From NCBI GenBank assembly GCA_944363915.1, contig CALVVR010000016.1, positions 1 through 36,846 on the forward strand: a stretch of 36,846 nt of DNA, written 5' to 3'. The stretch is from an uncultured Bacilli bacterium. Its GTDB lineage: Bacteria > Bacillota_I > Bacilli_A > RF39 > UBA660. The notes under the pieces were generated by a model that saw nothing but the letters and a program-made list of their open reading frames with translations, was not told the DNA's origin and ran no database searches. A program made the translations under genes and the position numbers. Position 1 is the stretch's first letter; each line of letters begins with the position of its first letter. Of this stretch, positions 9,846-26,655 are shown in pieces.

Positions 9846-9860
9846 AAAGGAATGGATTTT

Positions 9861-10703: not shown

Positions 10704-10705
10704 TC

Positions 10706-11893
10706 ATGAATGATAATTTATTTTCACAAATTGACTTCGGTCCTTTGACTGAGTATTTAAGCAATGATGATATTACTGATATTTCTTATGGTAATAATGG
10801 TCAGATTCATTTAAAAACATTATCGCAAGGTATTTTTAGGGTTGAAAATCCTAATATTAATAACGCTATGATGGAAAAATTAGCTTTTCAATGTTCTAAT
10901 GTTATGGGTAAGTCTTTTAATGCTGCACATCCTTTTCTTGATTCAGAGAGTGCAGAATTACGTATGAATTTTATTCACGATTCTGTTGCTACTAACGGCA
11001 TTGCTTGTGTTATTCGTAAAACACCAGCAAAAATAAGACTAGAAAAAGATAAGATTATTGCTGATAAATATATTACTTTAGATGTTCATGATTTTTTAGT
11101 TCAATGTGTTTTGGCTCATTGTAATATCATGGTTTGTGGAGAAACCGGATCTGGTAAAACTGAATTTGTTAAATATTTAGCTTCTAAAACAAATGAAGAA
11201 GAAAAAATAATAACAATTGAAGATACCTTAGAACTTCATTTAGATAAAATTTTTCCTCATCGAGATATTGTTGCAATGAAAACCAATAATGTTGCTACAT
11301 ATAGTGATGTTTTAGTAGCTTGTATGCGTCAAAACCCTAAATGGATCTTATTATCTGAGGTTCGAAGTGCAGAAGCTGTAATGGCAGTTCGTAACTCTAT
11401 TTCATCTGGACATTATATTTTATCAACAATTCATGCTGATAAAGCTGCATCTATCCCTAATCGTATGTATAGTTTATTGGAAACTAACCAAGAAATAGAT
11501 CAATTTTTAAAATCAATTTATCGTTATATTCAATTAGGTGTTTTAATTAGAGGACGTCAAGATCGTGAAACAAAACGCTTTATTCGTGAAGTTGGTGAAG
11601 TAACTGAATTTTATGTTACCGAAGATAATGAAGCCAAATATAATACTATTTATCGAAAAACACCTGAAGGAAAAGTTTTCAGAAAAAATCCTAGCAAATA
11701 TTTAATTGATTATATTGAAGGACAAGGAGTTAGTTTACCTGTTGGATTTATTAATCCGGCTTATGATCAAAATACAAAAAATCCAACTGTCCAACAAAAC
11801 ATTAATTCAACAATGCAATCAAATGTTCAACCTAATATAAATTCGACAATTCAGCCGAATATTCAACCGATAAATCAAGTTTCTACAGTTTAA
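10706..11893 (+). CDS. cpaF: CpaF/TadA-type secretion ATPase (VirB11 superfamily, 395 aa)
   Basis: This is the hexameric cytoplasmic motor of Tad pili. Walker A GETGSGKT is at 145-152, the Asp box near 167-175 (KIITIEDTLEL), Walker B WILLSEVR at 213-220, and the His box STIHAD at 240-245. The N-terminal region (1-130) is shorter than in many CpaF proteins, which carry an extra helical domain. The tail beyond residue 350 is unusual: about 40 residues of Asn, Gln, Pro and Ser with repeats of the kind QPNINSTIQPNIQP. It has little ribosome-site signal and probably depends on coupling to cpaB two bases upstream. It is the only VirB11-class ATPase here, so it could serve both the pilus and the secretion half. 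Confidence 0.93.
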   Translation: MNDNLFSQIDFGPLTEYLSNDDITDISYGNNGQIHLKTLSQGIFRVENPNINNAMMEKLAFQCSNVMGKSFNAAHPFLDSESAELRMNFIHDSVATNGIACVIRKTPAKIRLEKDKIIADKYITLDVHDFLVQCVLAHCNIMVCGETGSGKTEFVKYLASKTNEEEKIITIEDTLELHLDKIFPHRDIVAMKTNNVATYSDVLVACMRQNPKWILLSEVRSAEAVMAVRNSISSGHYILSTIHADKAASIPNRMYSLLETNQEIDQFLKSIYRYIQLGVLIRGRQDRETKRFIREVGEVTEFYVTEDNEAKYNTIYRKTPEGKVFRKNPSKYLIDYIEGQGVSLPVGFINPAYDQNTKNPTVQQNINSTMQSNVQPNINSTIQPNIQPINQVSTV

Positions 11894-11917
11894 TTTTAGA
11901 ATAGAAGGAGGTATAAT

Positions 11918-12820
11918 ATGTCAGCCACGATTTTTGTTGTTATTGCAATTATTCTTTTGTTTATTTTTGTGTATCGAATTAACACTGGTGAAAGTGTATA
12001 TAAGTTTATTACAAATCGTGCATCGACAATTTATGAACGATATGCGCCTTATTCTTTTAAAATCGTTAGAGAAAAAGTAAAAGAATTAGGTCAAGAATAT
12101 ACTCCACGACAATATGCTATTCAAATTGCAGTATTTGCAGTTGCATCGGCAATTGTTTCTTATTTGTATTTTTATAATTTGGTTTGGTGTATTGTTTATA
12201 TTTTGGCTTCAATTTTAGTTATTCCTTATTTAGCATATTTACGTTGTAAAAGATTATATAGTGAATTTATATTTGAACAAATTCAAGTCTATACAACTAA
12301 TACTATTATGGAATTTGCAACAACGCAAAGCTTTGTTAAATCGTTAGAAGGAGTTTATGAATCCGGCGTTTTAGAAGATCCTGTTAAAAGTGATGTTAAA
12401 ACAATGATCGATATGGCATACCGTAATGGTACTATTATTGAATCAATTGATTTTATGAATGAAAAATATGATTTTTATATTGTCAGAAATATGCACCAAT
12501 TATTTTTACAAATCACTAATGAAGGAGCTCGTGATGCTTCAGAATCTTTAGAAAATATGTCACAAGATATCGATATGTTAGTCGAAGGAGTTTATCGTGA
12601 TAGGATCGATCGTGCTACTTTCCATAAAAAGTTTTTACAATTTGGAATTGTTTTATATTTGATGGTTATGTTAGTTCAATTTCTATTGGGAACAGAAACT
12701 TATATCGAAATGTTAAAAATTTGGTACGTTCAGCTTTTGCTCCACGCTATTGTATTAATTAATACATATTTCTTGTTGGCCGGAGAGAAATTTTATAATG
12801 AGAATGTAGGTGCTGAATAA
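11918..12820 (+). CDS. tadB: TadB-like inner-membrane platform protein (T2SSF family, 300 aa)
   Basis: One helix at the N-terminus (2-20) and a pair at about 68-108 flank a cytoplasmic helical domain (about 115-240) containing FEQIQVYTTNTIMEFATTQSF and FLQITNEGARDASESLENM. Two closing helices follow near 247-290. This is the TadB/GspF order, with the helical domain contacting the ATPase. The gene follows cpaF and has an AAGGAGG site; its stop overlaps the tadC start (TAATG). T2SSF proteins diverge widely, so the call relies on topology and neighbours. Confidence 0.83.
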   Translation: MSATIFVVIAIILLFIFVYRINTGESVYKFITNRASTIYERYAPYSFKIVREKVKELGQEYTPRQYAIQIAVFAVASAIVSYLYFYNLVWCIVYILASILVIPYLAYLRCKRLYSEFIFEQIQVYTTNTIMEFATTQSFVKSLEGVYESGVLEDPVKSDVKTMIDMAYRNGTIIESIDFMNEKYDFYIVRNMHQLFLQITNEGARDASESLENMSQDIDMLVEGVYRDRIDRATFHKKFLQFGIVLYLMVMLVQFLLGTETYIEMLKIWYVQLLLHAIVLINTYFLLAGEKFYNENVGAE

Positions 12821-13602
12821 TGATGTTTTTAATTATTGCCATTATCTTATTTTTTATTATAATTTATAATAAAATAATTGAACCTAATGAGTTTATAAAA
12901 GATACTCAAGGAATTTTTAAATTTTTAATTGAATCTGATTATGAATTCTTACTAAAATTAAAATATGGTAATGATGTTAATGTTAGTAAGATGTTTGGCC
13001 AAAGAGTCAGAAATGGTCTAATTGCAATGGTGGCTATGTTTTTTATATTTCTTTCACAAATGCAATTTGTTTATTTCTTGTTTTGTGTGATTGTTGGTTT
13101 TGTTGTTTTTAAACAACCATACAGTTCATTAAAATCTTATTATAAAAAGAATTTACACCATATCAATTTAATGTTACCATATTATTTAAAAAGTTTGGAA
13201 ATATTAGTCCAACACTACACTGTTCCGGTGGCTTTATCACGTTCTATAGAACAAGCTCCTGAAATATTTAAACCAGGATTAAGAAGCTTAGTTTCAAAAA
13301 TTGAAGCTGGTGATATGACTGTTGAACCATATATGGATTTTGCTAAAGAATATCCGGTTCGTGATTCAATGCGTATGATGCGTTTATTGTATCGTTTAAG
13401 TTTAGGTAATCAAGATAAAAAACAAGAACAATTAATGATGTTTTCAAGAACAGTATCAAATTTACAAAATAAATCACGTGAACAAAAATATGCCGAAAGG
13501 TTATCGGCTATGGAACAAAGAACGATGGTTATGTTATTTGTTACTGGTGGTGGGATAATGATATTAATGTTATTGTCAATGATGATGATGATGAATTATT
13601 GA
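12820..13602 (+). CDS. tadC: TadC-like inner-membrane platform protein (T2SSF family, 260 aa)
   Basis: The layout parallels tadB: an N-terminal helix (1-17), a helix pair near 65-95, a cytoplasmic helical domain (YYLKSLEILVQHYTVPVALS) and a final helix rich in Met (MILMLLSMMMMMNY). TadB and TadC together form the platform on which the pilin is extruded. Two ATGs stand in tandem at 12820 and 12823; either could be the start, both being coupled to the tadB stop. The pilin promoter lies within its last codons and just after. Confidence 0.83.
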   Translation: MMFLIIAIILFFIIIYNKIIEPNEFIKDTQGIFKFLIESDYEFLLKLKYGNDVNVSKMFGQRVRNGLIAMVAMFFIFLSQMQFVYFLFCVIVGFVVFKQPYSSLKSYYKKNLHHINLMLPYYLKSLEILVQHYTVPVALSRSIEQAPEIFKPGLRSLVSKIEAGDMTVEPYMDFAKEYPVRDSMRMMRLLYRLSLGNQDKKQEQLMMFSRTVSNLQNKSREQKYAERLSAMEQRTMVMLFVTGGGIMILMLLSMMMMMNY

Positions 13603-13627
13603 TAAAATATAAAAATTGTGTTATACT
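13599..13627 (+). promoter_or_regulatory. Promoter of the pilin gene
   Basis: TTGATA (13599-13604), a 17-base spacer and TATACT (13622-13627), with TG one base before the -10. It lies at the very end of tadC, directly upstream of the small pilin gene. This fits a need for far more pilin than platform protein. Confidence 0.75.
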
Positions 13628-13650
13628 ATAAACAGTAAGGTGGTGAAATA

Positions 13651-13911
13651 ATGAAAGAAGCTGCTGGAGAAGCAAACATGACAGTTATTACTATTATTTT
13701 GATCGGTATTATTGCTGCAATAGCTATTCCACTTGTTCAAAATGCGATGAGCAGTTCTGCTAAACAAGGATGTTGTACAAACCTAGGACACCAATGGAGC
13801 GGTGGTACATGTTTTTCGATCAATGCTGATGGTACAAGAGGTGGTGAAGTAGAAGAAGCTGATTATTGGAATGCAGATGAAAATACTTGTGCTCGCGATA
13901 TATCAGGATAA
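13651..13911 (+). CDS. Probable major pilin of the Tad-like system (86 aa)
   Basis: A short N-terminus containing Gly-Glu (AAGEANMTV) runs straight into a roughly 22-residue helix (ITIILIGIIAAIAIPLVQNA), the hallmark of type IV/Flp prepilins. A small outer domain with four Cys (GCC pair, GTC, NTC) probably forms two disulfides. Cleavage after G6 by a prepilin peptidase would leave Glu at position +1 rather than at +5, so the processing site is not textbook. It has its own promoter and a GGTGG site. Small size, position after tadC and the dedicated promoter make it the best candidate for the main fibre subunit. Confidence 0.7.
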   Translation: MKEAAGEANMTVITIILIGIIAAIAIPLVQNAMSSSAKQGCCTNLGHQWSGGTCFSINADGTRGGEVEEADYWNADENTCARDISG

Positions 13912-13938
13912 TTTTATTTAATTTGAGGTGATTTACAA

Positions 13939-14370
13939 ATGAGAACGCCAATTGCTTACACTTTTCTTTTCAATTTAATGATTATTTTTATTTTAATAGT
14001 TTTTGCATTTATGGCTGGAACAATGAGTTATTATAAAGCATTTAAAGTAAATAATAGAATGGTTCATGCAATTGAAAAGTTTGAAGGATTTAATAATGAA
14101 TCTAAATTAGAAATTGAAATTTTCCTCGGTAGTTTAAGTTATAAAAGTGATGGCATAAACTGTGCAGAAACCTATAAAGGAATGCATTTAGTTCATCAAG
14201 GAACAACTTACAGTTATTGCATTTATATTGATCCTGAAAAACCTAAATCAGGCCAATATTATAATTATGGCGTTTTAACTTATATGTCAATTGATTTGCC
14301 TTTAGTTAATCTAATTAATTTTCCTGTGTTTACAAGAACAAATGAAATATATAAATTTACTAACACCTAA
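13939..14370 (+). CDS. TadE-like minor pilin/pseudopilin, paralogue 1 (143 aa)
   Basis: The N-terminal segment FLFNLMIIFILIVFAFMAGT is a membrane helix (about 8-30). It is followed by YYKAFKVNNRMVHAIEKFEG, a helical stalk, and then a beta-rich outer domain with two Cys (INC, SYC) and a segment ending LINFPVF. The next gene (14478) shares this plan almost segment by segment: helix, KxFKVxNR, EKxEG, two Cys, DxPxV, NFPxx. The pair probably come from a duplication and may cap or prime the fibre. GAGGTG precedes the ATG. A strong terminator overlaps the stop codon. Confidence 0.72.
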   Translation: MRTPIAYTFLFNLMIIFILIVFAFMAGTMSYYKAFKVNNRMVHAIEKFEGFNNESKLEIEIFLGSLSYKSDGINCAETYKGMHLVHQGTTYSYCIYIDPEKPKSGQYYNYGVLTYMSIDLPLVNLINFPVFTRTNEIYKFTNT

Positions 14371-14392
14371 AAGCTATATCAATAGCTTTTTT
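14369..14392 (+). terminator. Intrinsic terminator inside the secretion locus
   Basis: A 9-bp stem AAAAGCTAT-ATCA-ATAGCTTTT continues into a T-run and overlaps the stop of the 13939 gene. It would end the transcript carrying the pilin and the first TadE-like gene. Confidence 0.82.
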
Positions 14393-14422
14393 CGCTTTTT
14401 ACTATCTATTTTACATTTTTTA

Positions 14423-14451
14423 TTGTCGTAATTTTTAAAATATAGTATAAT
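14423..14451 (+). promoter_or_regulatory. Internal promoter before the second TadE-like gene
   Basis: TTGTCG (14423-14428), a 17-base spacer and TATAAT (14446-14451), just downstream of the terminator. It restarts transcription for the second TadE-like gene and the TadZ-like gene. Confidence 0.72.
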
Positions 14452-14477
14452 TATTAAAGAGTAAGGAGGGAAATATT

Positions 14478-14909
14478 TTGAGAGAGGCTTTAGGAAGTTC
14501 GATGTTGTTTAATTTAATTATGATTTTTACAGCGGTTTTTATCGCACTTTTAATAGGATCATTAGCTTACTCTAAAGGTTTTAAGGTTCGAAACAGGATT
14601 ATTGATATTGTTGAAAAACATGAAGGGTATACACAAGATGCGATAGATGAAATTAATGAAAATTTAACTTCGATTGGTTACCGAAATGTCGGTGATAGCA
14701 ATCGATGTGGACCACATAATGGGACTGATGCTTTAGATAATACTAGTCCCTATGATTATTGTATATATCGTTATATGACTAGTAAAGGTGAATATTATGG
14801 TGTAACTGTTTATGTTCATTTTGATATTCCTATTGTTGGCTACTTTTTGAATTTTCCTCTATATGGTGAAACTAGAATTTTATTTGATAAAAATGAGGTG
14901 GAAGGATAA
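14478..14909 (+). CDS. TadE-like minor pilin/pseudopilin, paralogue 2 (143 aa)
   Basis: The start is TTG, chosen because AAGGAGG stands 7-8 bases upstream and the reading frame immediately gives MREALGSSMLFNLIMIF, matching paralogue 1. The membrane helix spans about 9-30. The stalk carries SKGFKVRNRIIDIVEKHEG, and the outer domain has Cys at about 76 and 94. The product has exactly the same length as its paralogue. The stop overlaps the ATG of the TadZ-like gene (TAATG), so the two are coupled. The function is inferred from topology and neighbours. Confidence 0.72.
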   Translation: MREALGSSMLFNLIMIFTAVFIALLIGSLAYSKGFKVRNRIIDIVEKHEGYTQDAIDEINENLTSIGYRNVGDSNRCGPHNGTDALDNTSPYDYCIYRYMTSKGEYYGVTVYVHFDIPIVGYFLNFPLYGETRILFDKNEVEG

Positions 14910-15898
14910 TGAATGTAATAATTGCAAATGAAAAAAAAGAACTGTTATCAACATTAAATATTGATGTAATTAAATCAGTTGAAGGACAATTTGATGTTGA
15001 TGAATTAGTTGATATGTTTAAAAATTTTTACTATCAAAGAATGATTTTAGATATTACGGCATTAAAAAATTATAATGATATTAAAACCTTACAAAAATTA
15101 TCAATTTCTTTAGATATGGATAAATTAATTTTATTATTAGACGATAGCGAAGAATCATCAAGTCCTAGTTATTTATCTAAATTAATTTCAATGGGAATCT
15201 ATAATTTTACGCGTAATGTCGAAGGAATAATGTATTTATATAATAATCCTAATAGTTATCGTGATGTTGCCCAATATCATCAGATAGATAATCAAGATAC
15301 TGAACAAGTTGTATATCAAGGAGTTGAAGCCAACTATTGTCGTATTATTGGCGTTAAAAATGTTACCGAAGAATCTGGTGCTACAACATTTTGTTATATG
15401 ATGGTCAAGCAATTAAAGAAAAATTATAATGTTATTGGTGTGGAAGTTGATGCAAACGATTTTAATTATTTTAATGATAAAGTATTACATAGTGTCAACA
15501 GTCGTGACTTAGGCTATTTTATCGAAAAAAACAATGATAAAGATGTTATTATTGTCGATGTTAATAAAAGTCCTACAGCAATGGGATTAGTTCAAGAAAT
15601 GATTTATTTGGTTGAACCATCAGTAATTAAGTTAAACAAATTAATGAATATCAAAAGAAATGCTTTCAAAGAATTATCAGGCAGAAAAATTGTTTTAAAT
15701 CAAAGCCTACTTAGTTCTAAAGATGTTTTAGAATTACAATATGAAGCTCGAGCTAAATTTTTCTTTAATATGCCACCATTAAATGAAAGAGATTCAAATA
15801 TTATGATTATGGATACTTTTTTATCTAAAATGGGATTTTTAAAGCAACAGGGTGAAGAAGAACAAGAAAAAAGAAAAAAAATATTCGGCTTATTTTAG
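14909..15898 (+). CDS. TadZ/CpaE-like atypical ATPase, probable polar or membrane positioning factor (329 aa)
   Basis: There are two parts. Residues 1-115 resemble a degenerate receiver domain (MNVIIANEKKELLSTL, then KLILLLDD and SMGIYNFTRN). Residues 140-310 resemble a MinD/ParA-type ATPase (GATTFCYMMVKQLKKNYNVIGVEVDAN, then DVIIVDVNK). The P-loop position reads VTEESGATTF and lacks the signature Lys, as described for TadZ proteins with atypical ATPase domains. TadZ/CpaE proteins localise Tad machines. The tail is Glu/Lys-rich. It is translationally coupled to the TadE-like gene and 8 bases before the first VirB2-like gene, bridging the two halves of the locus. Confidence 0.78.
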   Translation: MNVIIANEKKELLSTLNIDVIKSVEGQFDVDELVDMFKNFYYQRMILDITALKNYNDIKTLQKLSISLDMDKLILLLDDSEESSSPSYLSKLISMGIYNFTRNVEGIMYLYNNPNSYRDVAQYHQIDNQDTEQVVYQGVEANYCRIIGVKNVTEESGATTFCYMMVKQLKKNYNVIGVEVDANDFNYFNDKVLHSVNSRDLGYFIEKNNDKDVIIVDVNKSPTAMGLVQEMIYLVEPSVIKLNKLMNIKRNAFKELSGRKIVLNQSLLSSKDVLELQYEARAKFFFNMPPLNERDSNIMIMDTFLSKMGFLKQQGEEEQEKRKKIFGLF

Positions 15899-15906
15899 GA
15901 GGTTTT

Positions 15907-16317
15907 ATGAAAAAGGTAGTGATAATATGTTTGCTTTTGACTTTATGCTTTACTGTTGATATTGCTTATGCTGCTAATACCTATTCTAAAATAGTTTGTG
16001 GTGATGCTGAAGTTCCATACGCTGCAGCTCAAGTTACTAGTACTATAATAAACATTTTAAAAATTATTACGCCAATTATAATTATTATTTTTGGCATGAT
16101 CGATTTAGTTAAAGGAGTCATGGCCCAAAAGGAAGATGATATTAGCAAAGGTAGTAAAACTTTTGTAAGAAGATTATTATTAGGAGCGTTTGTTTTTTTG
16201 GTTTTTGTTTTTGTTGAATTTATCATTGGTTTAGTTGCTCCAAAGAGCAGTAATACCAATATGTGGAATTGTGTCGATTGTTTTGTCAATAATAATTGCA
16301 CAAGTATTATGAAATAA
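15907..16317 (+). CDS. VirB2/TrbC-like two-helix membrane protein, paralogue 1 (136 aa)
   Basis: A signal peptide (1-22, cleavage near AYA) is followed by two hydrophobic helices (about 45-65 and 82-105) joined by a charged turn (KGVMAQKEDDISKGSKTFVRR). This is the plan of VirB2/TrbC pilins and related small subunits of Gram-positive conjugation systems. The C-terminus ends in a cluster C-V-D-C-x5-C that recurs in the next gene. The ribosome site is AGGAGG. It may form a fibre or ring at the cell surface. The alternative is an accessory channel subunit. Confidence 0.72.
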   Translation: MKKVVIICLLLTLCFTVDIAYAANTYSKIVCGDAEVPYAAAQVTSTIINILKIITPIIIIIFGMIDLVKGVMAQKEDDISKGSKTFVRRLLLGAFVFLVFVFVEFIIGLVAPKSSNTNMWNCVDCFVNNNCTSIMK

Positions 16318-16346
16318 TTGACAAATTAGTAAAAATATAGTATTAT
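16318..16346 (+). promoter_or_regulatory. Consensus promoter before the second VirB2-like gene
   Basis: TTGACA (16318-16323), exactly 17 bases, then TATTAT (16341-16346). It starts at the last base of the preceding stop codon region and drives the next small gene alone, because a terminator follows that gene. Confidence 0.8.
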
Positions 16347-16370
16347 TAGATTTAGATGAGGAGGATTTTT

Positions 16371-16712
16371 ATGTTTTTATTAGATGTTACTTGTGGTGGT
16401 GGAACTTTAGTAATGGATGAGATGATACCAAGATTAGTTTCTACTGCTATTGATATTATTAAAATAGTTGTTCCAATTTTATTAGTAGTTTTTGGTATGT
16501 TAGATTTAGGTAAAGCTGTTATGGCTCAAAAAGAAGACGAAATTAAAAAAGGTCAACAAACATTCGTTAAAAGATTAATTGCTGCTGTCATTGTATTCTT
16601 AGTTGTTTTTATTGTTGAATTAGTGGTTGGTTTAGTTGCACCTAAAGATGATAATACAAACATCTGGGGCTGCTTTGATTGCCTTGTTAATAATGAATGT
16701 GATCCTGCATAA
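16371..16712 (+). CDS. VirB2/TrbC-like two-helix membrane protein, paralogue 2 (113 aa)
   Basis: The start is taken at 16371, where GAGGAGG lies upstream; an in-frame ATG at 16356 overlaps that ribosome site. There is no clear signal peptide, unlike paralogue 1. The two helices (about 24-43 and 67-88) are joined by KAVMAQKEDEIKKGQQTFVK, almost the same turn as in paralogue 1. The tail CFDCLVNNEC matches the CVDCFVNNNC of paralogue 1. Its own TTGACA promoter and its own terminator make it a single-gene, high-output unit, as expected of a structural subunit. Confidence 0.75.
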   Translation: MFLLDVTCGGGTLVMDEMIPRLVSTAIDIIKIVVPILLVVFGMLDLGKAVMAQKEDEIKKGQQTFVKRLIAAVIVFLVVFIVELVVGLVAPKDDNTNIWGCFDCLVNNECDPA

Positions 16713-16806: not shown

Positions 16807-18681
16807 ATGTGGTTTATAGATATAATTAGGTCACTATTTTTTGCAATTGATGGCATTATTTATTCCTTTATTGTTACTGTTTATAATTTGTTTGTCGATA
16901 TCGCACAAACTTCAATATTTACAGAAGAAGTAATTGATTTATTCGCATCTAAGGTATATGCACTTTTAGGTATTTTCATGCTGTTTAAAGTATCTTTTTC
17001 CATATTATCCTATATAGTCAGTCCTGATGACTTTCTAGATAAAACAAAAGGTTTTAGTAAATTAATTAGTAATATAATTATCACTTTGACTTTATTAATT
17101 GCTACTCCATGGATTTTCACACAAGCAATGGAAATTCAAAGAATTATATTGCGAGATAATATTATTGGCAAAATATTTTCTACTTCCAATGTTAATACTC
17201 AAGTGGTAACTGATCCAGGAAGCACTATGGCTTATGAGACTTTTAAAGCTTTTTACCATTTAGATATTGATAGTTTCCCAGAATGTAAAGGGATCGAAGA
17301 AGCTAGTGCTGATGAAATAAGTAATGGTACTTTTGATTCCTGTAAAACAGAAGCATTTAATGATGCTGATGATTTCGAATCATTAGCCCAAACATTAAGA
17401 TATGCACATCAAACTAATAGCGTTACTATTTATATGGATTCTAATTTGGTCAATCAAAAGTCCAATATTGATACCTATACTATGAGTTATACATTTTTAA
17501 TATCTACTTTGGCTGGTGGTGCAATTTGTTTACTACTGATTGTTTTCTGCTTTGATATAGCAGTTAGAAGCGTAAAATTAGGATTTTTACGAATGCTTGC
17601 TCCAATTCCAATTGTATCTCGTGTTGATCCTAAAAAAGGAAAAGAAGTTTTTGATAAATGGTTAAAAGTTTGTATAAGTACTTATTTAGATTTGTTTATA
17701 AGATTAATTGCTATATATTTTGCTATTTTTGTTATTACTCAACTAATTGATCTAAGATTTGTGGATGCAGTAACAGGATTAGAAACAGATGTTAATGCTT
17801 TTGTTAAAGTATTTATAATTTTAGGTGCATTATTATTTGCTAAACAATTACCTAAGCTAATTGAAGATTTAACCGGTGTAAAGATGAGTGGCAAGTTTAC
17901 TTTAAATCCAATGAACAAATTAAGACAAACGCCTTTAGTCGGAGCTGGTTTGACAACCGCTGCTGCCTTAGCTGGTGGTGCTTATACAGGTTTTAAAGCT
18001 GGGCAACAAGCTGGAGCACCTATGCGTGGTATGTGGCAAGGTATGATGGGAGCTAGAAGAGATATAAGAGGTAAAGTCCCTTTAATGGGTGATGACAAAG
18101 GTGGAAAGAGTCCTCGTGCTTTCCATTCTGGTATGCAGTCTGGTTATAAAACTATAACAGGTAAAGACTATGAAACCTTTGATCCTTGGAAAGTAATAGG
18201 AAATAAAAAAGGTGCTTCGATGGTTGACGAATACAAACAAAGTAAATATGCTTTGCAAGGACAACAAGCTTCTCTTGATGCTGAACTTCAAGCTTTATAT
18301 GATCAATTAAAAAATACTACTGATCCAGAAAGAAAAAGAAGCTTAACTGCTGATATTGAAGCTAATAGAAGTAAATATGGTAAGATTTCTAAACATATTT
18401 CGGTTATTGATGATCAAATTAAAGATGTTAAAAGATTATATCATATTGATGATTCTCCACAGAAAGATCTCGAAGCTGCAATGGCAGCTGCTAGAAGCCC
18501 AAGAATAGAAAGTAGTGTAAGTAGTCCTTCTACAGCTGCTTCAGGGCCAACTATTCGTACTGCAGCAACTGATACTACAGTTAAAACACCAAGTGGTGGT
18601 GAAGTAAAAGTTCATGCTGGAGAACAACATACAGACTCTGGAATAATAATTGGAAATGATAGTAATTGGAATAGAAAATAA
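16807..18681 (+). CDS. VirB6/TrbL-like polytopic channel protein (624 aa)
   Basis: Three helices lie in the first 110 residues. An outer loop of about 120 residues with two Cys (about 158 and 178) follows, then three to four more helices between about 230 and 355. The segment FLRMLAPIPIVSRVDPKKGKEVFDKWLKVC is typical of TrbL/VirB6-type proteins of Gram-positive conjugation modules. The last 250 residues are soluble: Ala/Gly/Met-rich, then a coiled coil (about 470-560), then a Ser/Thr/Ala-rich tail. VirB6 proteins form the inner-membrane translocation path. It is the first gene of an uninterrupted run that includes PrgI and VirB4. Confidence 0.82.
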   Translation: MWFIDIIRSLFFAIDGIIYSFIVTVYNLFVDIAQTSIFTEEVIDLFASKVYALLGIFMLFKVSFSILSYIVSPDDFLDKTKGFSKLISNIIITLTLLIATPWIFTQAMEIQRIILRDNIIGKIFSTSNVNTQVVTDPGSTMAYETFKAFYHLDIDSFPECKGIEEASADEISNGTFDSCKTEAFNDADDFESLAQTLRYAHQTNSVTIYMDSNLVNQKSNIDTYTMSYTFLISTLAGGAICLLLIVFCFDIAVRSVKLGFLRMLAPIPIVSRVDPKKGKEVFDKWLKVCISTYLDLFIRLIAIYFAIFVITQLIDLRFVDAVTGLETDVNAFVKVFIILGALLFAKQLPKLIEDLTGVKMSGKFTLNPMNKLRQTPLVGAGLTTAAALAGGAYTGFKAGQQAGAPMRGMWQGMMGARRDIRGKVPLMGDDKGGKSPRAFHSGMQSGYKTITGKDYETFDPWKVIGNKKGASMVDEYKQSKYALQGQQASLDAELQALYDQLKNTTDPERKRSLTADIEANRSKYGKISKHISVIDDQIKDVKRLYHIDDSPQKDLEAAMAAARSPRIESSVSSPSTAASGPTIRTAATDTTVKTPSGGEVKVHAGEQHTDSGIIIGNDSNWNRK

Positions 18682-18698: not shown

Positions 18699-19016
18699 AT
18701 GAATAATTTTTTAATACCGGCTAATGCCAAAAAGTCAATGTTAATATTTGGATTATTTACAAAATTTGATCTAATATTATTTTTAGTGGGAGTTGGAATA
18801 TCGTTATTATTATTAATGACTCTTCCAGTGCAACAAATTGCTATAGCAATTATTGCTTTATTACCAGCTTTAGTTACCGGATTTTTGGTTATGCCAGTAC
18901 CAAATTACTATAATATGCGAACTTTACTTAGTTCAGCTATTCAATTTTTAATGAATCAAAGAAAGTTTAAATGGAAAGGTTGGTGTGTTCCTCATGGCGA
19001 AGACAAAAAGAAGTAA
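18699..19016 (+). CDS. PrgI/VirB3-like inner-membrane protein (105 aa)
   Basis: A short start FLIPANAKKSMLIFGLFTKFD (the IPxNxKKS...G-L-x-FD pattern of PrgI proteins) is followed by two helices (about 26-46 and 48-68). A basic cytoplasmic tail (NQRKFKWKGWCVPHGEDKKK) ends the protein. PrgI is the Firmicute counterpart of VirB3, links VirB4 to the membrane, and is nearly always encoded directly before virB4, as here. Its 3' end overlaps the start of the VirB4 N-terminal gene by 23 bases. Confidence 0.87.
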   Translation: MNNFLIPANAKKSMLIFGLFTKFDLILFLVGVGISLLLLMTLPVQQIAIAIIALLPALVTGFLVMPVPNYYNMRTLLSSAIQFLMNQRKFKWKGWCVPHGEDKKK

Positions 19017-19539
19017 TTATACTACTGATTTTGTACCAGTTAAAGAAATAAAAAATGGTTATATCATACTTGATAATGGATTAAAAGTAACAGGGGTTAA
19101 AATAATGCCAAGGAATATTTTTATTCTAGATCAACAAACACAAGATGCTATTATTGCTAATTTAAGAACAGTTTATAATACAATTGATTATGAATTTTGG
19201 ATTATTGCGGCAGATAGACCAGTAGATATTCACGTTTATTTATCACAACTAGAACTCCTATATAACAATATTAGTAATCCTGTAAAAAGGAAATTAATTA
19301 TGGAAGATATTAATAAAGGAAATATGTTTATGAATAATAATATTGTTGATACTGAATATTTCTTATTATTTAGAGAAAAAAAAGATGATATAATTCAAAA
19401 AAGAATAAGAAGTTTAATCAATACTTTAGCAGGTGCTGGATTAGTGGCTTATCAAACTACTAATGATGACTTACGAATGATTTTGGATAATTTCTTAAAT
19501 GGTGGAGTAACCACTACGTTTGGGACGGTGTTAGGATAA
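18994..19539 (+). CDS. VirB4 N-terminal domain encoded as a separate protein (181 aa)
   Basis: The opening TTDFVPVKEIKNGYIILDNG is the characteristic N-terminus of Firmicute TraE/VirB4 proteins, where it is normally fused to the ATPase. The chain ends after about 180 residues (NGGVTTTFGTVLG) with TAATG leading straight into the ATPase gene. There are no membrane segments. The start is placed at the ATG at 18994, since the GTG nine bases earlier has no better ribosome site; both overlap prgI. The ATG after the stop and the intact flanking frames suggest a genuine two-gene form rather than a sequencing frameshift. The two proteins presumably assemble into one VirB4 unit. Confidence 0.8.
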   Translation: MAKTKRSNYTTDFVPVKEIKNGYIILDNGLKVTGVKIMPRNIFILDQQTQDAIIANLRTVYNTIDYEFWIIAADRPVDIHVYLSQLELLYNNISNPVKRKLIMEDINKGNMFMNNNIVDTEYFLLFREKKDDIIQKRIRSLINTLAGAGLVAYQTTNDDLRMILDNFLNGGVTTTFGTVLG

Positions 19540-21323
19540 TGGATATAAAAGCACAAATAGCTCCTAAGGGCTTAGAATTTAAATCAAGTGATTTTATCAT
19601 TAGTGATAAATATGCAACTATTTTAACAGTAATTTCTTATCCAAAATTTATATCTCCTGGATATTTAGCTAATTTAACTAGTATGTCTGGAGTTAAAGTA
19701 GTAATTAAACATATACCTTTACCATTTAGTGTTATTCAAAGAATGCTCAATAAAGAAATAGCTGATTTAAAAGCACGTTATCAAGAAGAAAATGATAAAA
19801 CAATTCAAGAAAGAATTAGACAAGATTATGAATCATTAGAATATTTTATTTCACAGTTAGTTAGTACTCAATCTAAAATATTTGATTTCCAAATGCATGT
19901 TATGGTAACTGCTGACTCCGAAGAAGAATTGATTAGTAAAAAACTACAAGTAAAAAGTTATTTAGAAGCAATGGAGATGAAAGCTTTTCCACTAAGATTT
20001 GAACAAGAAAGAGTTTTAAAATCAATTATTCCAATTTATCCAAAACAAACAATAGAAGATAGAATTGGAACACCAATTCCTGCTCCAACTATTGCCGCAA
20101 TGTTTCCTTTTATTTTTGATAGTATTAAAGACCCAGGATTATCTTGTTTATTAGGTGTTGATTTTTCTGGTGGAGTTATTTTATTTAATCAATTCTTATA
20201 TCAAATAAGAAAAGAACATAATCGCAATAATGCTAACATTATTATTTTAGGTACATCAGGTTCAGGTAAATCAACCGCTGCTAAACTATTAATCAGAACG
20301 CATATTCGAAACGATATTCAAATAGTTATAATTGACCCTGAGGGTGAATTTGAAGATATGACAAGATTATATGGAGGAGACTTTATCGATTTAGGTAAAG
20401 GTGGAGAGTTTGGAATGGTAAACCCTTTAGAAATCATTATGGATGCTGATGACGATGAAATAAAACAAGGATTGGGGTACACTGTCTTAACAAGAACCTT
20501 ACAATCTATAAAAGCTTTTATTAAATATTATGACCCAAGTACTGAAGAAGATGTAATTAATGTATTTAGTGAAATTGTTCAAGATACTTATCGTCGGTTT
20601 GGCATAGATTTTACAACAGATTTTTCTAAACTAACTTCAGATGACTATCCAACTTTAAAAGATGTGTATGCAACAATAAGAGGTAAATTATTATCTATTC
20701 CTGAAAAAACACATGAAAAAGATGTATTAGAAAAATTAGAGTTAAAAATTCGTCCATTAGTCAAAGAATTAAGATATTATTTTGATGGACATACTACAAT
20801 AAAACCACAAAGTAATTTTATTGTATTTAATATAAGAGAGTTAATGAATAGTGATAAAAATATTCGTAATGCTTTATTTTTCAACATATTAAAATATGCT
20901 TGGAGTTTAACTTTAAATCCTAATGTCAATACAGTTTTAACCGTTGATGAAGCGCATGTTTTAATTTCTGGTGATAATCTTTTAGGAGCAGATTTCTTAG
21001 GACAAATTCAAAGACGTGCCCGTAAATATAATACCGGTACTATCATTATTACACAACAACCTTCAGATTTCAGTGACCCTTCTGTTATTACACAAGGAAA
21101 GGCTATATTTGATAATGCGTCTTATTATCTAGTTATGGGATTGAAAAAACAAGCTGTCGAAGATTTATCTAAATTAATCGATTTAAATGATAATGAAAAA
21201 GAAAGTATTAAACGTTATAACCAAGGTGAAGCTTTATTTGTCTGTGGCAGTAGAAGAATGCGGATTAATATAATTGCTACTGAACAAGAATTAGATTCCT
21301 TTGGTAGTGGTGGTGGATTATAA
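19539..21323 (+). CDS. virB4: VirB4/TraE-type secretion ATPase, catalytic part (594 aa)
   Basis: The essential energy source of type IV secretion. Walker A GTSGSGKST is at 238-246, an IIDPEGE strand lies near 264-270, Walker B VLTVDEA is at 466-472, and an arginine/Gln motif TIIITQQPSDF near 505. Residues 1-200 form the middle CagE/VirB4-type domain, with a long charged helix around 70-105. The protein is complete for the catalytic half but lacks the N-terminal domain, which the coupled upstream gene supplies. VirB4 is a reliable marker of the type IV secretion family. Confidence 0.94.
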   Translation: MDIKAQIAPKGLEFKSSDFIISDKYATILTVISYPKFISPGYLANLTSMSGVKVVIKHIPLPFSVIQRMLNKEIADLKARYQEENDKTIQERIRQDYESLEYFISQLVSTQSKIFDFQMHVMVTADSEEELISKKLQVKSYLEAMEMKAFPLRFEQERVLKSIIPIYPKQTIEDRIGTPIPAPTIAAMFPFIFDSIKDPGLSCLLGVDFSGGVILFNQFLYQIRKEHNRNNANIIILGTSGSGKSTAAKLLIRTHIRNDIQIVIIDPEGEFEDMTRLYGGDFIDLGKGGEFGMVNPLEIIMDADDDEIKQGLGYTVLTRTLQSIKAFIKYYDPSTEEDVINVFSEIVQDTYRRFGIDFTTDFSKLTSDDYPTLKDVYATIRGKLLSIPEKTHEKDVLEKLELKIRPLVKELRYYFDGHTTIKPQSNFIVFNIRELMNSDKNIRNALFFNILKYAWSLTLNPNVNTVLTVDEAHVLISGDNLLGADFLGQIQRRARKYNTGTIIITQQPSDFSDPSVITQGKAIFDNASYYLVMGLKKQAVEDLSKLIDLNDNEKESIKRYNQGEALFVCGSRRMRINIIATEQELDSFGSGGGL

Positions 21324-21344: not shown

Positions 21345-23753
21345 ATGAACAATGAACTAAATAATGGAAATAATCCTCAACAAAATCAAAAAAATATTCC
21401 TGAAAAAGGAAATTTTTCTGCATTACCAAGTCAAAATAATCAAGTAAATCAAAACAATCAAGTAAATCAAAATAATCAAGCAAATCAAAACAAATCAAAT
21501 TTATCAAATAATAATATAAAAAATGGATATAATCCCAATCAAATTAATCGTGGGAATAATGCCAAAAATAATCCACAGCTTGCTGCAAGAGATAAAATTG
21601 TTAATCAGGCTAAACAAGAAATGGTAAAAGAAGGAGCGAAAGCTGCTGCTACTGCCGCTGCTGGACCAGCAGGTGGAGCCGCCGTTGAAGCTTTATCTAA
21701 AACTAAAGCTGGTCAAAAAATATTGAATAATGCTACTAATAAATTAACACCTAAAAAGTTTAGCCCTTTTTCTTTTTTCAAAAATGATAAAAAGGAAGAC
21801 GAAGAAGAGGCCGAAGGTGAAGGTGAAGTAGCCATTGATATGGCTAAAAAAATAATTAACTTTGGTGCGATTGGAACATTTGGTATTAGTGGTTGCTTTT
21901 CTTTTATAATTATAATTTTAATTGTTACAATTATTATCGCGCCATTATTTTATATTAACGAACTTATATCTTCAGCTGGTAATGCACTTTCCGATTTTGG
22001 TGAAAAACTTGGTAATTTTTTAACTTTTCGCGGTTGGTGTAATGATGAAGAATGTGAAGAAATTGAACAAAATAATTTTTATGAACATATTGACGAAGTT
22101 TATGATGAATATTTAGAAGATAAAAATGTAAGATTAAATGTCACATTGTTGACAGCTACCTTAACATATGCTGATCCTTTCACTACTCTTGATGATGAGG
22201 CAATTACTAATATTGAAGATTTAGTGCCTTCTAATTACATTGATTTTAGAAAAAGTGACGCTAAGATTGATACTTTAGCTGAAAAAATGGTTAGTTATTG
22301 TTGTTATAAAAATGGTAATTTATATATGACTGATAATAATGAACCTATGTGTCGGGGGAGTGACGGGACTAATTATGATGGAATAAATTATAATTGTCCA
22401 CAAGAAAAAGGTTACTCAGAACGTTATATTTTGGATATTGATCGTTATGAAGAATATTTAAGAGAAGATTTTGTAAGAAAATTTTACTTTGATAATAAGT
22501 CAGGTAATTCTGTTGACGCAAAAGTTGACGATGCCGTCGATGAAATTTTTTTAAGAGTTGCAATGTATGAAGATTATGATAACAGTGTTGGTTCATCAAC
22601 TAATTTTACGGGTAATAATACAACTGTTACAATTTTAGATTGTAACAATAACACTGTTATTGAACAAGTCTCACTTTATGAGTACTTACAAGGAGTTTTA
22701 TATGTCGAAGGATTCGCAACTGGGCGTTCCGAAGAATTTTTGAAAGTTATGGCTGTTGTAGCTAAAAATTTTTTATACGCCTTAAATGGAGTCTCTGTTG
22801 ATTCTGTTCCGACGGAATTAAGAGTTAGAAGTTGTCAAATGAATCAGATTTTTTGCAGTGTAACTGAAGGATGTCATAGTTGGGAAGATGGAACACCGGA
22901 AAATTGTTCGGTTTATAATTCCAATTCAACAGCTTGTGATACAATTGCTAGTGGACCTGATGAAAATGGAAATTATCGGAATCCACCTTTAGATGCAGAT
23001 TCTGAAACTTTAGAAAAAATAAAAAATGCCATTGATTCTACATTGTCTGAATTTATTATTAAAGATGGTAAATTTGTTTTAACGCAATATCGTGCTTCGT
23101 GTTCTGGAATTTGTGATTCATCAAATAATATTATGGATCAAGCTAAAGCTAATGACATGATTGAATCTGGTGGTACTTATAAAGAAGTGCTAAACTATTT
23201 TTATAATGGTGATATTGAAGAAGTTGAACTCTATATAGCTGGTTATCCATTAGATTTGCAATACAATAATGTTACATCTGCTTATGGTTGGCGAGTTGAC
23301 CCAATAAGAGGTTGTTGCCGTCATCATAATGGCACAGATATTGGGGCTGATCCAGATGCTAACATTTACTCTATTGCAGATGGAGTTGTTGTGACAAATA
23401 CTTATCATAATTCCTATGGTAATTACACAATAATTGGTCACGGTCAATTAGATCCTGATACGGGTTATTATGAATATTATAGTTTATATGCCCATCAAAT
23501 AAGATTATCTACTTTAATTTCCGTTGGGGATACAGTAAGGGCAGGACAACAAATTGGTGATGTAGGTTCGACTGGTGATTCAACTGGACCTCACTTACAC
23601 ATTGAAATATATAGCTATGTAAATGGTAGACAAGTTCGTCAAGATCCTGTCGAGTATTTCTCAGGAGTTGAGTTGACAGGACAAGTTGGTGGTACTTTGT
23701 ATGATTCAGAAAGTCAATGTCAAACTCAAAGTGGTAGTGGAAGTTGTAGTTAG
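21345..23753 (+). CDS. Membrane-anchored SpoIID-M23 bifunctional peptidoglycan hydrolase (802 aa)
   Basis: Cytoplasmic residues 1-170 are Asn/Gln-rich, with an imperfect QNNQVN repeat at 30-50. A single membrane helix spans about 183-203, and the rest is outside. A SpoIID-type lytic transglycosylase domain begins near 425: VSLYEYLQGVLYVEGF carries the expected catalytic Glu (E455). An M23/LytM endopeptidase domain follows near 635-785, with zinc ligands H661-x3-D665 and H750-x-H752 and the partner H717. At least 18 Cys are spread over the outer part. The domains would cut both glycan and peptide bonds, opening the wall for the channel, the role VirB1 or CwlT-type proteins play elsewhere. It lies 21 bases after virB4. 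Confidence 0.88.
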   Translation: MNNELNNGNNPQQNQKNIPEKGNFSALPSQNNQVNQNNQVNQNNQANQNKSNLSNNNIKNGYNPNQINRGNNAKNNPQLAARDKIVNQAKQEMVKEGAKAAATAAAGPAGGAAVEALSKTKAGQKILNNATNKLTPKKFSPFSFFKNDKKEDEEEAEGEGEVAIDMAKKIINFGAIGTFGISGCFSFIIIILIVTIIIAPLFYINELISSAGNALSDFGEKLGNFLTFRGWCNDEECEEIEQNNFYEHIDEVYDEYLEDKNVRLNVTLLTATLTYADPFTTLDDEAITNIEDLVPSNYIDFRKSDAKIDTLAEKMVSYCCYKNGNLYMTDNNEPMCRGSDGTNYDGINYNCPQEKGYSERYILDIDRYEEYLREDFVRKFYFDNKSGNSVDAKVDDAVDEIFLRVAMYEDYDNSVGSSTNFTGNNTTVTILDCNNNTVIEQVSLYEYLQGVLYVEGFATGRSEEFLKVMAVVAKNFLYALNGVSVDSVPTELRVRSCQMNQIFCSVTEGCHSWEDGTPENCSVYNSNSTACDTIASGPDENGNYRNPPLDADSETLEKIKNAIDSTLSEFIIKDGKFVLTQYRASCSGICDSSNNIMDQAKANDMIESGGTYKEVLNYFYNGDIEEVELYIAGYPLDLQYNNVTSAYGWRVDPIRGCCRHHNGTDIGADPDANIYSIADGVVVTNTYHNSYGNYTIIGHGQLDPDTGYYEYYSLYAHQIRLSTLISVGDTVRAGQQIGDVGSTGDSTGPHLHIEIYSYVNGRQVRQDPVEYFSGVELTGQVGGTLYDSESQCQTQSGSGSCS
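21432..21495 (+). repeat. Tandem 18-bp repeat inside the hydrolase gene
   Basis: About three and a half copies of an 18-base unit (CAAAATAATCAAGTAAAT with small changes) encode repeated QNNQVN. It is in frame and can expand or contract without disrupting the gene. It lies in the cytoplasmic N-terminal tail. Confidence 0.8.
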
Positions 23754-23764
23754 GAGGGTACAAA

Positions 23765-24475
23765 GTGAAAAAAATAGTATTTGGAGTTTTGTTATTATTA
23801 ATCCTAACAGGATGTGATGTACAATACGATTTAGTGGTTACAAATAAAGAAAAAATAACAGAAACAATAACTGTTTCTGTTGATAATCAAATTATTGAAA
23901 ACAATTCTATGACTATTGATGAATATTTGGATTATTATTCTAGTCTTTATGAAAATAACCCTGGATATGCCGGAATTAATATAGATACTAAAAAAGGTGA
24001 TACATATTCTTCTTTTATAGCTAAGAATGAATATTCTTCCTTAGATGATTATATAACATCCTATACTTTTAAAAATATGTTTAATAGTGCAACAATTGAA
24101 AGGGTAGGCAGTTATATTAGTTTTACTACTTCAAAAAACGTCTATTTAGAAAACATTAAAAATGATCAGTTAGTTTCTGAACAATCAAAGTATGATAGTT
24201 TTAAAATAAGTATAAAATTTTATAATAAACTAGCTAACCATAACGCTGATGAAGTTGATGAGAAAAACAATATCTATTCATGGAATATTGATGAAAACTC
24301 AACTAAAGATTATATTTATTTTAAAATAAGTCCTGATGTTAGATATGATGTTATGATCAAGGATATTATTCAAAATAATATATTATTGATAAGTATTATT
24401 GGTGGAATATCACTGTTAGTTATTATTTTTGTTCTTTATGTTATGATCAAAATGAAAAAAAATAACGAAATTTAA
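23765..24475 (+). CDS. Lipoprotein with an additional C-terminal membrane helix (236 aa)
   Basis: The start is GTG, with GGAGGG 6 bases upstream. The signal peptide ends in the lipobox LTGC (Cys at about 18), so the N-terminus should be lipid-linked. The outer domain of about 170 residues looks alpha/beta with many Tyr and Ser. A second anchor near 205-227 (LLISIIGGISLLVIIFVLYV) with a basic tail would fix the C-terminus as well. Being tethered at both ends is uncommon. It lies between the wall hydrolase and the coupling protein and is probably an extracytoplasmic part of the machine. No family is recognised. Confidence 0.78.
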   Translation: MKKIVFGVLLLLILTGCDVQYDLVVTNKEKITETITVSVDNQIIENNSMTIDEYLDYYSSLYENNPGYAGINIDTKKGDTYSSFIAKNEYSSLDDYITSYTFKNMFNSATIERVGSYISFTTSKNVYLENIKNDQLVSEQSKYDSFKISIKFYNKLANHNADEVDEKNNIYSWNIDENSTKDYIYFKISPDVRYDVMIKDIIQNNILLISIIGGISLLVIIFVLYVMIKMKKNNEI

Positions 24476-24525: not shown

Positions 24526-26655
24526 ATGAAATTAAAATTTAAAGCAACGGCTAAAGATTATCTAATATTTGCTATATTTGCAGTTGTTTTATTATATTTT
24601 GTAGCAATTGCTGTATTAAATCTTTCTAGTTTTGCTACTAATGGCCGTTTTCATGGCTTTGATCCATTACCAGCTTTTTCATCACAATATATACTTCCAA
24701 CGATTGTTGGGTATATATTCGCTCTTATTTTTATTATTACTAGTGTTTCCTCTTATTTCTTTGATCGTGATAAAGGGATTGGTTTTAGTACTGGTGCTAA
24801 AGAAGAAAAGGGATATGCCAGATGGGCAGATGAAAAAGAATTTAAAAAACAAAAAGATATTTATAAAGTTATACCTAGTCAAGAAACTTGTGAACATGCA
24901 GGGATTCCATTAATTAATAATGGTAAAGAAATATGGGTTGATGCTGGCGAATACCATAATTTAATTTTAGGTTCTACTGGTTCAGGTAAAACTCAAACAA
25001 TGGTTCAACCGATGGTCCGTATTTTAGCTAAAAAAGGTGAATCAATGATTATTACCGATCCTAAAGGTGAAATTTACGAAAACAATGCTGAAATGTTAAA
25101 AGAAAAAGGTTATAATATCGTTTTACTTAATTTTCGTGATCCACAAAAAGGTAGCGCTTGGAACCCATTAGGATTACCTTATCAATTATATAAATCAGGT
25201 AATAAGGATAAAGCTAATGAGTTACTAGACGACTTAGCGATGAATATTTTGTATGATGATAAAGCTCAAAATCAAGATCCATTCTGGGAAAAAACTTCTG
25301 CTGATTATTTTACTGGTTTAGCTTTAGCATTATTTGATGATGCTAAAGAAGATGAAATTAATTTAAATACAATTAATTTAATGACAACTGTAGGTGAAGA
25401 AAAATTAGGTAATACAACTTATATTAAAGAATATTTTAACTATAAAGATAAAGCAAGTCCTGCTTACATTAATGTTTCTTCTACGATTATGGCACCGAGT
25501 GATACTAAAAGTAGTATTTTGTCAGTATTTAAACAAAAAATTAAATTATTTTCTTCAAGAGAAAATTTATCAGAAATGTTAAGCCATAGTGACTTCGATT
25601 TGAAAGATATTGGACGTAAAAAAACTGCTGTTTTCTTAGTAATTCAAGACGAAAAGAAGACATATCATTCTTTAGTTACTATTTTTATTAAGCAATGCTA
25701 TGAAACATTAATTGATGTTGCTCAAGAATCAGGTGGTAAATTACCTTTTAAAACTAATTTTATTTTGGATGAGTTTGCTAATATGCCACCTTTAAAAGAC
25801 GTAACAACAATGGTTACTGCTGCTCGTAGTAGAAATATTAGATTTACTTTCATCATTCAAAACTTTGCTCAATTATATCAGGTTTATGGTAAAGAAAATG
25901 GTGAAACAATTAAAGGTAACTGTGGTAATATTGTCTATCTTATTAGTAGTGAATTAGCGTCACTAGAAGAAATTAGTAAATTATGTGGTGAGGTTAAATC
26001 AAAAGAAAAAGATAAAACGGCTAGTACACCTTTAGTAACTGTTAGTGACTTGCAAAGATTACCGGAAAATACAATTATTGTTTTACGAATTAGATCAATG
26101 CCTTTTAAAACAAAAGTCGTTCCTGATTGGAAAATTCAAAAAGAAGGCGGATGGGGAAAAACTTATCCTAAAGCTACTTATCCAACTAGAGAAAGACAAG
26201 AAATTAAATTATTTGATTTAAAAGCTTATGTGGATGCAAAAAGGGAAGATAAATTAAATGATATGATGTCTTCATTTAATCGTCCTCCTGTTCCTCCGGT
26301 TATTCCTAGAGAACCTAAACAAAATAATCAATCAGTTAAAGAAGATAGTTTTGATATTGATGCGTTGGTTCAACGTATTGATGCTAAAATAGCTGAATTA
26401 GAAGAGCAAGAAAAACAAGAACAATTATCTAAATCTCAATCTCAAAATTTAGAAAATAAAGCAACAGAAAATAAGGAATCTGTTTCAACGTCAAGTTTTA
26501 CTTCATCTGATGCTTCTAAAGCCGTTGAAACAATGTCTAATGGTTCTAAAGTTATTGAGGAACCTAAAATAGAATTGAAAGAAGAAGAAAATAAAGTAAT
26601 TAATGGTGTTACTGATGATCAATTTTTTGATGATTTCTTTAATGATGAAGAATAG
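24526..26655 (+). CDS. virD4: VirD4/TraG-type coupling protein ATPase (709 aa)
   Basis: Two N-terminal helices (about 11-33 and 57-77) are followed by the nucleotide-binding region: Walker A GSTGSGKT at 149-156, TDPKGEIY near 178-185, and Walker B NFILDEFANM at 411-420. The QNFAQLYQVYGKENGETIKGN stretch is the usual VirD4/TraG C-terminal ATPase motif. The tail after about 570 is low-complexity, Gln/Glu/Ser-rich and ends in an acidic patch (DDQFFDDFFNDEE). VirD4 proteins bring substrates (DNA-relaxase complexes or effector proteins) to the channel. No relaxase gene accompanies it here. This is the last gene of the locus. Confidence 0.94.
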   Translation: MKLKFKATAKDYLIFAIFAVVLLYFVAIAVLNLSSFATNGRFHGFDPLPAFSSQYILPTIVGYIFALIFIITSVSSYFFDRDKGIGFSTGAKEEKGYARWADEKEFKKQKDIYKVIPSQETCEHAGIPLINNGKEIWVDAGEYHNLILGSTGSGKTQTMVQPMVRILAKKGESMIITDPKGEIYENNAEMLKEKGYNIVLLNFRDPQKGSAWNPLGLPYQLYKSGNKDKANELLDDLAMNILYDDKAQNQDPFWEKTSADYFTGLALALFDDAKEDEINLNTINLMTTVGEEKLGNTTYIKEYFNYKDKASPAYINVSSTIMAPSDTKSSILSVFKQKIKLFSSRENLSEMLSHSDFDLKDIGRKKTAVFLVIQDEKKTYHSLVTIFIKQCYETLIDVAQESGGKLPFKTNFILDEFANMPPLKDVTTMVTAARSRNIRFTFIIQNFAQLYQVYGKENGETIKGNCGNIVYLISSELASLEEISKLCGEVKSKEKDKTASTPLVTVSDLQRLPENTIIVLRIRSMPFKTKVVPDWKIQKEGGWGKTYPKATYPTRERQEIKLFDLKAYVDAKREDKLNDMMSSFNRPPVPPVIPREPKQNNQSVKEDSFDIDALVQRIDAKIAELEEQEKQEQLSKSQSQNLENKATENKESVSTSSFTSSDASKAVETMSNGSKVIEEPKIELKEEENKVINGVTDDQFFDDFFNDEE

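Follow-up and report, generated by a model that had tools for sequence, protein, structure and literature searches.

The stretch of DNA analysed here (the window, 36,846 nucleotides) carries a type IV secretion system (T4SS) locus that adjoins Tad-pilus genes, and the gene under study occupies the VirB1-like hydrolase slot of this locus, directly 3' of the gene for the C-terminal part of VirB4 (VirB4C) and 5' of a lipoprotein gene and VirD4. The features, with the evidence for each in brackets, are as follows:

9438-15898, + strand: Tad/Flp-pilus-like block with DUF5411, RcpC/CpaB, T2SSE ATPase, TadB-like, TadC-like, pilin-like and TadZ-like genes
15907-16712, + strand: two T4SS-pilin-like genes, 15907-16317 and 16356-16712 (conserved position; T4SS_pilin 0.0014, below cut-off, for the second)
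16807-18681, + strand: VirB6/TrbL-like membrane protein (Pfam, NCBIfam)
18699-19016, + strand: PrgI/VirB3-like membrane protein (Pfam, NCBIfam, family loci)
18985-19539, + strand: N-terminal part of VirB4 as a separate gene (NF045975, 2.9e-14; split seen family-wide)
19539-21323, + strand: C-terminal part of the VirB4 ATPase, 594 aa (NF045975, 4.2e-109; 123/145 family genomes)
21345-23753, + strand: SpoIID-M23 VirB1-like wall hydrolase, 802 aa, single ORF (translation, Pfam; same fusion in nine same-genus genomes)
21345-21881, + strand: its Asn/Gln-rich low-complexity N-terminal region, aa 1-179, presumably cytosolic (composition)
21882-21956, + strand: transmembrane segment, aa ~180-204 (hydropathy)
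22005-22604, + strand: conserved N-terminal ectodomain, aa 221-420, about 200 aa, common to the M23- and CHAP-type hydrolases of the genus (alignment A1)
22605-23228, + strand: SpoIID-fold domain, aa 421-628, a short form without GHGxGMSQ, with a Cys/His cluster at C497, C504, C510 and H511 (Pfam, AlphaFold model, alignment)
22707-22709, + strand: E455, aligned with the SpoIID catalytic Glu, E101 in C. difficile and E88 in B. subtilis (alignment; PMC6221140, PMC6635528)
23322-23636, + strand: Peptidase_M23 domain, aa 660-764, with HxxxD, H717 and HxH intact (Pfam, structural comparison, residue check)
23765-24475, + strand: lipoprotein with a C-terminal membrane helix and an LppM-like predicted fold, co-varying with the catalytic half of the hydrolase in the genus
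24526-26655, + strand: VirD4 coupling protein, CD1115 family (NF045973, 9e-89; 91/98 family genomes)

Where Pfam gave no match, the Tad names were assigned by gene order and size and by comparison with a parallel block on a plasmid. A sequence-only reading had described the hydrolase as a membrane-anchored, Cys-rich protein with SpoIID and M23 domains on one chain, and Pfam, a profile of slot homologues and an AlphaFold model all agree with the latter. The Peptidase_M23 domain matches at 4.1e-24, the metal and catalytic residues H661, D665, H717, H750 and H752 that had been pointed out are all present, and 18 of the 19 Cys lie C-terminal to the single hydrophobic segment. By its sequence, the protein consists of one membrane anchor and hydrolase modules on the C-terminal side of it, which would place these modules outside the cell. 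An assembly or frameshift chimera is ruled out, because nine same-genus genomes carry the identical single-ORF arrangement and the fusion is therefore not an artefact. The host genome comprises 1.14 Mb in 46 contigs; among publicly available genomes, it is closely related to MAGs of uncultured Bacilli and to Candidatus Faecisoma merdavium, which is placed by NCBI in the Mycoplasmatota.

From the window sequence alone, the SpoIID call for the middle domain would be a modest one: the SpoIID match (PF08486, aa 436-570, 3.9e-5) is above the Pfam cut-off, just so, with 24.6 against 23 bits, the match to TIGR02870 (aa 419-515, 7e-10) has 38.5 bits and stays below the NCBIfam equivalog cut-off of 234.75, and the match to TIGR02669 (1.7e-6) is far below its cut-off. 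It is the addition of a slot-homologue profile match, a fold match and the alignment of E455 to this borderline Pfam result that makes the SpoIID identity firm. The profile built from about 16 same-slot SpoIIDs (A2) matches the genome's own canonical SpoIID with an hhalign probability of 97.9 and an E-value of 3.5e-13. In the AlphaFold model (mean pLDDT 75, mostly 70-96 across the SpoIID region), residues 201-408, corresponding to aa 421-628, match C. difficile SpoIID (5i1t) with Z 16.7 over 161 aa at 2.6 Å, B. anthracis SpoIID (4rwr) with Z 13.3 and SleC (9h68) with Z 14.0; these matches came from a second structural comparison, the best 50 Foldseek matches for the whole hydrolase model being M23-type entries only. 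Sequence and model together thus firmly predict a SpoIID fold for aa ~421-628. E455, which had been singled out in a SpoIID-like segment, sits in VSLYEYLQGVLYVEG at the position of the catalytic Glu of the Y-x-x-G-V-x-x-x-E segment, and corresponds to E101 of the full-length C. difficile chain when aligned by way of the own-genome SpoIID. According to the alignment, the hydrolase has lost the C-terminal half that canonical SpoIID has (FSTSxGxTEN ... GHGVGMSQ), or has something else in its place, and the domain is shorter there. Across 16 slot SpoIIDs with a mean identity of 36%, six columns are invariant, the catalytic Glu among them.

Many slot SpoIIDs also share the pattern C-x3-Q-x2-C-x5-C, represented in the hydrolase by C497, Q501, C504 and C510, followed by H511, and this Cys/His pattern at aa 497-511 is a candidate for a metal site or disulfides. 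A zinc site like that of C. difficile (C140/C146) was considered and fails, as the conserved Gln separates most Cys of the hydrolase from those positions. One same-genus copy (L018, genome G016) has lost the catalytic Glu (IHAYAT), and is a natural candidate for an inactive SpoIID.

The hydrolase had also been interpreted as an engulfment-type enzyme recruited to open the wall for this machine. The position of a T4SS-operon hydrolase, between virB4 and virD4, was borne out, but the recruitment from engulfment is unsupported, because the slot SpoIID forms a lineage separate from the host sporulation SpoIID. In a tree of 41 SpoIID domains, which are short and some of which have long branches, the window-type slot SpoIIDs form their own branch (support 96/86), the CHAP-linked SpoIIDs another (99/96) and the family sporulation SpoIIDs a third (100/98). 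The window SpoIID is therefore not a recent copy of the host sporulation gene, and the two appear from their sequences to be separate lineages. Elsewhere in its genome, the host retains a spoIID-spoIIQ-spoIIID cluster of its own, and the window M23 is closer to MepM/LytM enzymes than to the host SpoIIQ, whose M23 is without the first zinc motif. A fusion of the host spoIID and spoIIQ is likewise unsupported, given the separate SpoIID branch and an intact MepM/LytM-type M23 as against a degenerate SpoIIQ. That sporulation cluster (L001, contig G000:C4) consists of a canonical spoIID, a spoIIQ-like gene whose M23 site is degenerate, and a gene resembling spoIIID, which fits the predicted sporulation of RF39. 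SpoIID domains outside sporulation are already known, for example in chlamydial division (PMC6635528).

The locus as a whole is a chromosomal, vertically kept part of the core genome of the family (UBA660, order RF39 in GTDB). VirB4C homologues are found in 123 of 145 family genomes and 122 of 144 genera, nearly all with 62-93% identity and an open frame of ~600 aa, and VirD4 in 91 of 98 family genomes. The separation of VirB4 into two genes is old, since it is kept across almost the whole family, and the ~600-aa open frame in nearly all of the 123 genomes rules out that the split is an error. In 40 other genera and the same-genus loci, with local exceptions, the same order recurs: Tad-like block, T4SS-pilin-like genes, VirB6, PrgI, VirB4N, VirB4C, hydrolase, lipoprotein, VirD4, rhodanese and RmuC. 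The Tad/Flp-pilus-like block lies directly upstream of the T4SS genes, in the same place in many genera, and short VirB4 genes close to T2SSE genes also occur in L137 and L138, which represent two further families of the class. A mobile element (ICE) was ruled out for the window locus by its chromosomal flanks (PFL, tRNAs, RmuC, Rnr, SmpB and tmRNA) together with the family-wide conservation. Both ATPases, VirB4 and VirD4, are present in the window locus, and no relaxase was recognised among the window proteins scanned with Pfam, NCBIfam and further scans; this is a family-core chromosomal machine with no relaxase recognised beside it, and not an ordinary conjugative element. Our search of the open-access literature returned nothing relevant on a T4SS of RF39.

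Turning to the hydrolase gene that follows VirB4C in 40 other genera, which are related and not independent, Pfam finds SpoIID in 19 of them. A peptide cutter is recognised by Pfam beside SpoIID in 9 of these 19 slots, namely M23 in four (L063, L064, L073 and L096), CHAP in two (L060, L069) and a C39-like domain in three (L074, L082, L084), with a C39-like motif in several more. SpoIID-M23 fusions beside virB4, which the sequence-only reading had proposed to look for, thus exist in these four genera as well as at the nine same-genus loci, and in L073 the domain order is reversed, M23 preceding SpoIID. Another glycan cutter is found in 7 of the 40 genera, five above cut-off and two weak: phage lysozyme with M23 (L070, and weakly L077), phage-tail lysozyme with M23 (L080, L094) or CHAP (L078), and glucosaminidase with CHAP (L089) or, as a weak match, with M23 (L092). 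The remaining slots hold a peptidase only, or nothing recognised by Pfam. SpoIID and another glycan cutter never occur in the same slot protein (0/19 vs 7/21, Fisher p 0.009; 0/19 vs 5/21, p 0.049, for matches above cut-off only), with p-values that are only indicative because the genomes are related. The catalytic Glu is kept in all 19 of the other-genus slot SpoIIDs. SpoIID-M23 is, then, one of several module combinations in one modular slot. Full-length matches to the slot-type SpoIID outside the family were not found among the 295 genomes sampled, nor on plasmids, and the sampling was limited in both cases.

Sixteen other loci were found in the genus, every one with SpoIID; in nine it is the divergent, window-like SpoIID with M23, and in seven a SpoIID mostly with the canonical GHGRGMSQ and with CHAP. 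The CHAP-type loci show 23-26% identity to the window in the C-part of the hydrolase and 31-41% in the lipoprotein, as against 45-80% and 46-79% in the M23-type loci, while VirB4C (86-97%) and VirD4 (74-94%) do not separate the two types. The type of the catalytic half and that of the lipoprotein agree in 7/7 CHAP-type and 9/9 M23-type loci, and L101 and L107, both with 97% VirB4C identity to the window, have different cassettes. The catalytic half and the adjacent lipoprotein gene, as judged from these identities, appear to be swapped as one cassette within the genus. We infer that the two proteins function as partners. A model of the lipoprotein (pLDDT 85.6) is similar to LppM of M. tuberculosis (Foldseek 6.4e-8).

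On this basis, we consider it probable that the protein serves a chromosomal, vertically kept T4SS as its VirB1-like wall hydrolase, with a predicted M23 peptide cutter and a predicted SpoIID glycan cutter that open the cell's own wall for the channel. The single-pass anchor would hold the two cutters outside the membrane, where the M23 endopeptidase would cut peptide cross-links and the short SpoIID-fold domain would cut the glycan strand through E455, both cooperating to open the peptidoglycan of the cell itself locally, at the place where the VirB4/VirB6/VirD4 channel and the pilus are built. SpoIID would thereby take the glycan-cutter seat that is held by lysozyme, phage-tail lysozyme or glucosaminidase in sister genera. 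A wall is expected in this host because its genome has six transpeptidase-domain matches (PBP genes), and most RF39 are predicted to be walled (PMC10868615). Gram-positive VirB1 homologues are membrane-anchored with at least one extracellular hydrolase domain (PMC12857230). The substrate is the weak step of the proposed mechanism. An M23 endopeptidase cuts cross-links and leaves the stem peptides on the glycan. C. difficile SpoIID acts on stripped glycan and shows activity only when the amidase SpoIIP is present (PMC6221140), and since M23, unlike SpoIIP, strips no stems, the slot SpoIID would need a changed substrate preference or another partner. The short SpoIID may have acquired a different preference, may be helped by another enzyme, or may no longer cut.

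This last option, in which the SpoIID domain would bind glycan or regulate M23 while the latter cuts alone, is made possible by the loss of GHGxGMSQ along with the C-terminal half, and it draws further on the lost Glu of L018, on the regulatory role of the LytM/CHAP modules of PrgK (PMC11323569) and on the inactive VirB1 homologues that have been proposed as adhesins (PMC12857230); nevertheless, the Glu is kept in all other-genus slots and in every same-genus copy seen except L018 despite the 36% identity, and the seat otherwise holds true glycan hydrolases, so that we regard a non-enzymatic SpoIID as rather improbable. Less probable still, and in our opinion quite unlikely, is that the hydrolase attacks the wall of a neighbouring cell, be it recipient or rival, with the co-varying lipoprotein as inhibitor or self-protection. 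The joint swap of catalytic half and lipoprotein beside a steady VirB4C and VirD4 and the fast module turnover across the family speak for it, but the hydrolase carries a membrane anchor, no signal for its release was recognised, the known Gram-positive VirB1 homologues are anchored (PMC12857230), and the co-variation fits a structural partner equally well, as PrgL is for PrgK (PMC11323569).

Another explanation bears on the machine and leaves the role of the enzyme aside, namely that a normal conjugation machine mobilises relaxase-bearing elements in trans, the hydrolase being an ordinary conjugation VirB1. Mobilisation in trans is possible because MOBV relaxase matches are found in 34 of 58 genomes, two of them in the own genome on other contigs, and the wide retention of VirD4 and a like locus with a MobP3 relaxase on an Exiguobacterium plasmid also speak for it; against it stand the relaxase-free result for the window and the fact that the weak MOBP matches, present in 23 of 98 family genomes, are situated close to full-length virB4 genes that belong to other elements, as is the own-genome match, beside a second, full-length VirB4 on another contig. 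On balance we hold conjugation in trans to be unlikely, and give slightly more credence, still tentatively, to a domesticated hybrid of Tad pilus and T4SS, the core machine of a family of small-genome gut Bacilli, which would be non-conjugative (DNA uptake, contact-dependent delivery or adhesion), with hydrolase and lipoprotein swapped as a cassette under diversifying selection and a dedicated SpoIID lineage as its commonest glycan cutter.

Among known systems, PrgK of pCF10 in E. faecalis, TraG of pIP501 and Orf14/CwlT of Tn916 are, like our hydrolase, membrane-anchored proteins with several extracellular modules, encoded in T4SS operons and combining glycan and peptide cutters on one chain. 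Their glycan module is SLT/muramidase, whereas that of the window is SpoIID, and PrgK also has a LytM (M23) module, but with a degenerate site, in contrast to the intact one of the window (PMC11323569). The VirB1-like ALPHA, BETA and DELTA layouts consist of SLT/MUR with CHAP or NlpC/P60, and the window protein, in which Pfam found SpoIID and M23 only, has none of these layouts. The engulfment SpoIIDs of C. difficile and B. anthracis have the fold and the catalytic Glu in common with the window domain, which differs from them in being short, without GHGxGMSQ, fused to M23, on a separate branch and in a T4SS setting. In the spoIID-spoIIQ pair of sporulating Bacillota, also present in the own genome, SpoIID and an M23 fold are encoded side by side, yet as two proteins. 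The polyvalent proteins of phages and conjugative elements include a SpoIID-like domain in a mobile-element protein for which a role in breaching peptidoglycan has been proposed (PMC5512222), although these are multi-domain invasion proteins and the window protein fills the VirB1 slot of a chromosomal T4SS. Apart from them, the open-access literature searched held nothing relevant on SpoIID in a T4SS, and the modules it names are SLT/muramidase, CHAP, NlpC/P60 and LytM only (PMC12857230, PMC11323569), in keeping with the earlier remark that SpoIID is unusual in such a hydrolase. The best reading of sequence and model is a VirB1-like bifunctional hydrolase, itself of a known kind, in which SpoIID as the glycan module would be new.

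If this is correct, type IV secretion systems gain another fold among their glycan cutters, the use of SpoIID domains outside sporulation goes back a long way, and a conserved T4SS with no relaxase beside it is present in a large gut lineage of uncultured bacteria. The relatives swap the cutting domains freely while the rest of the machine is kept, and this would amount to a natural domain-swap set at one fixed position of one machine, by which the needs of a T4SS from its wall hydrolase become testable.

The Exiguobacterium plasmid pEYLC1.2 (L144) offers a close parallel to the locus, sharing a short VirB4 (614 aa, preceded by a 199-aa gene), VirD4 of the CD1115 family, TrbL, CpaB, a T2SS ATPase and Tad-like genes; unlike the window, it is plasmid-borne and has the MobP3 relaxase, a lysozyme-family protein and no annotated SpoIID. 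To us, the window locus looks like a chromosomal relative of such conjugation loci, or one derived from them, the direction being the one we infer. A second T4SS in the own genome (L097, G000:C14:8000-27999), with full-length VirB4, VirD4 and a weak relaxase match, is probably an integrative element. Lastly, the loci L057-L096 contain variable genes at fixed places in many genera, of ~350-560 aa between the pilin-like genes and VirB6 and of ~400 aa after VirD4, which are candidates for pilus tips, adhesins or substrates.
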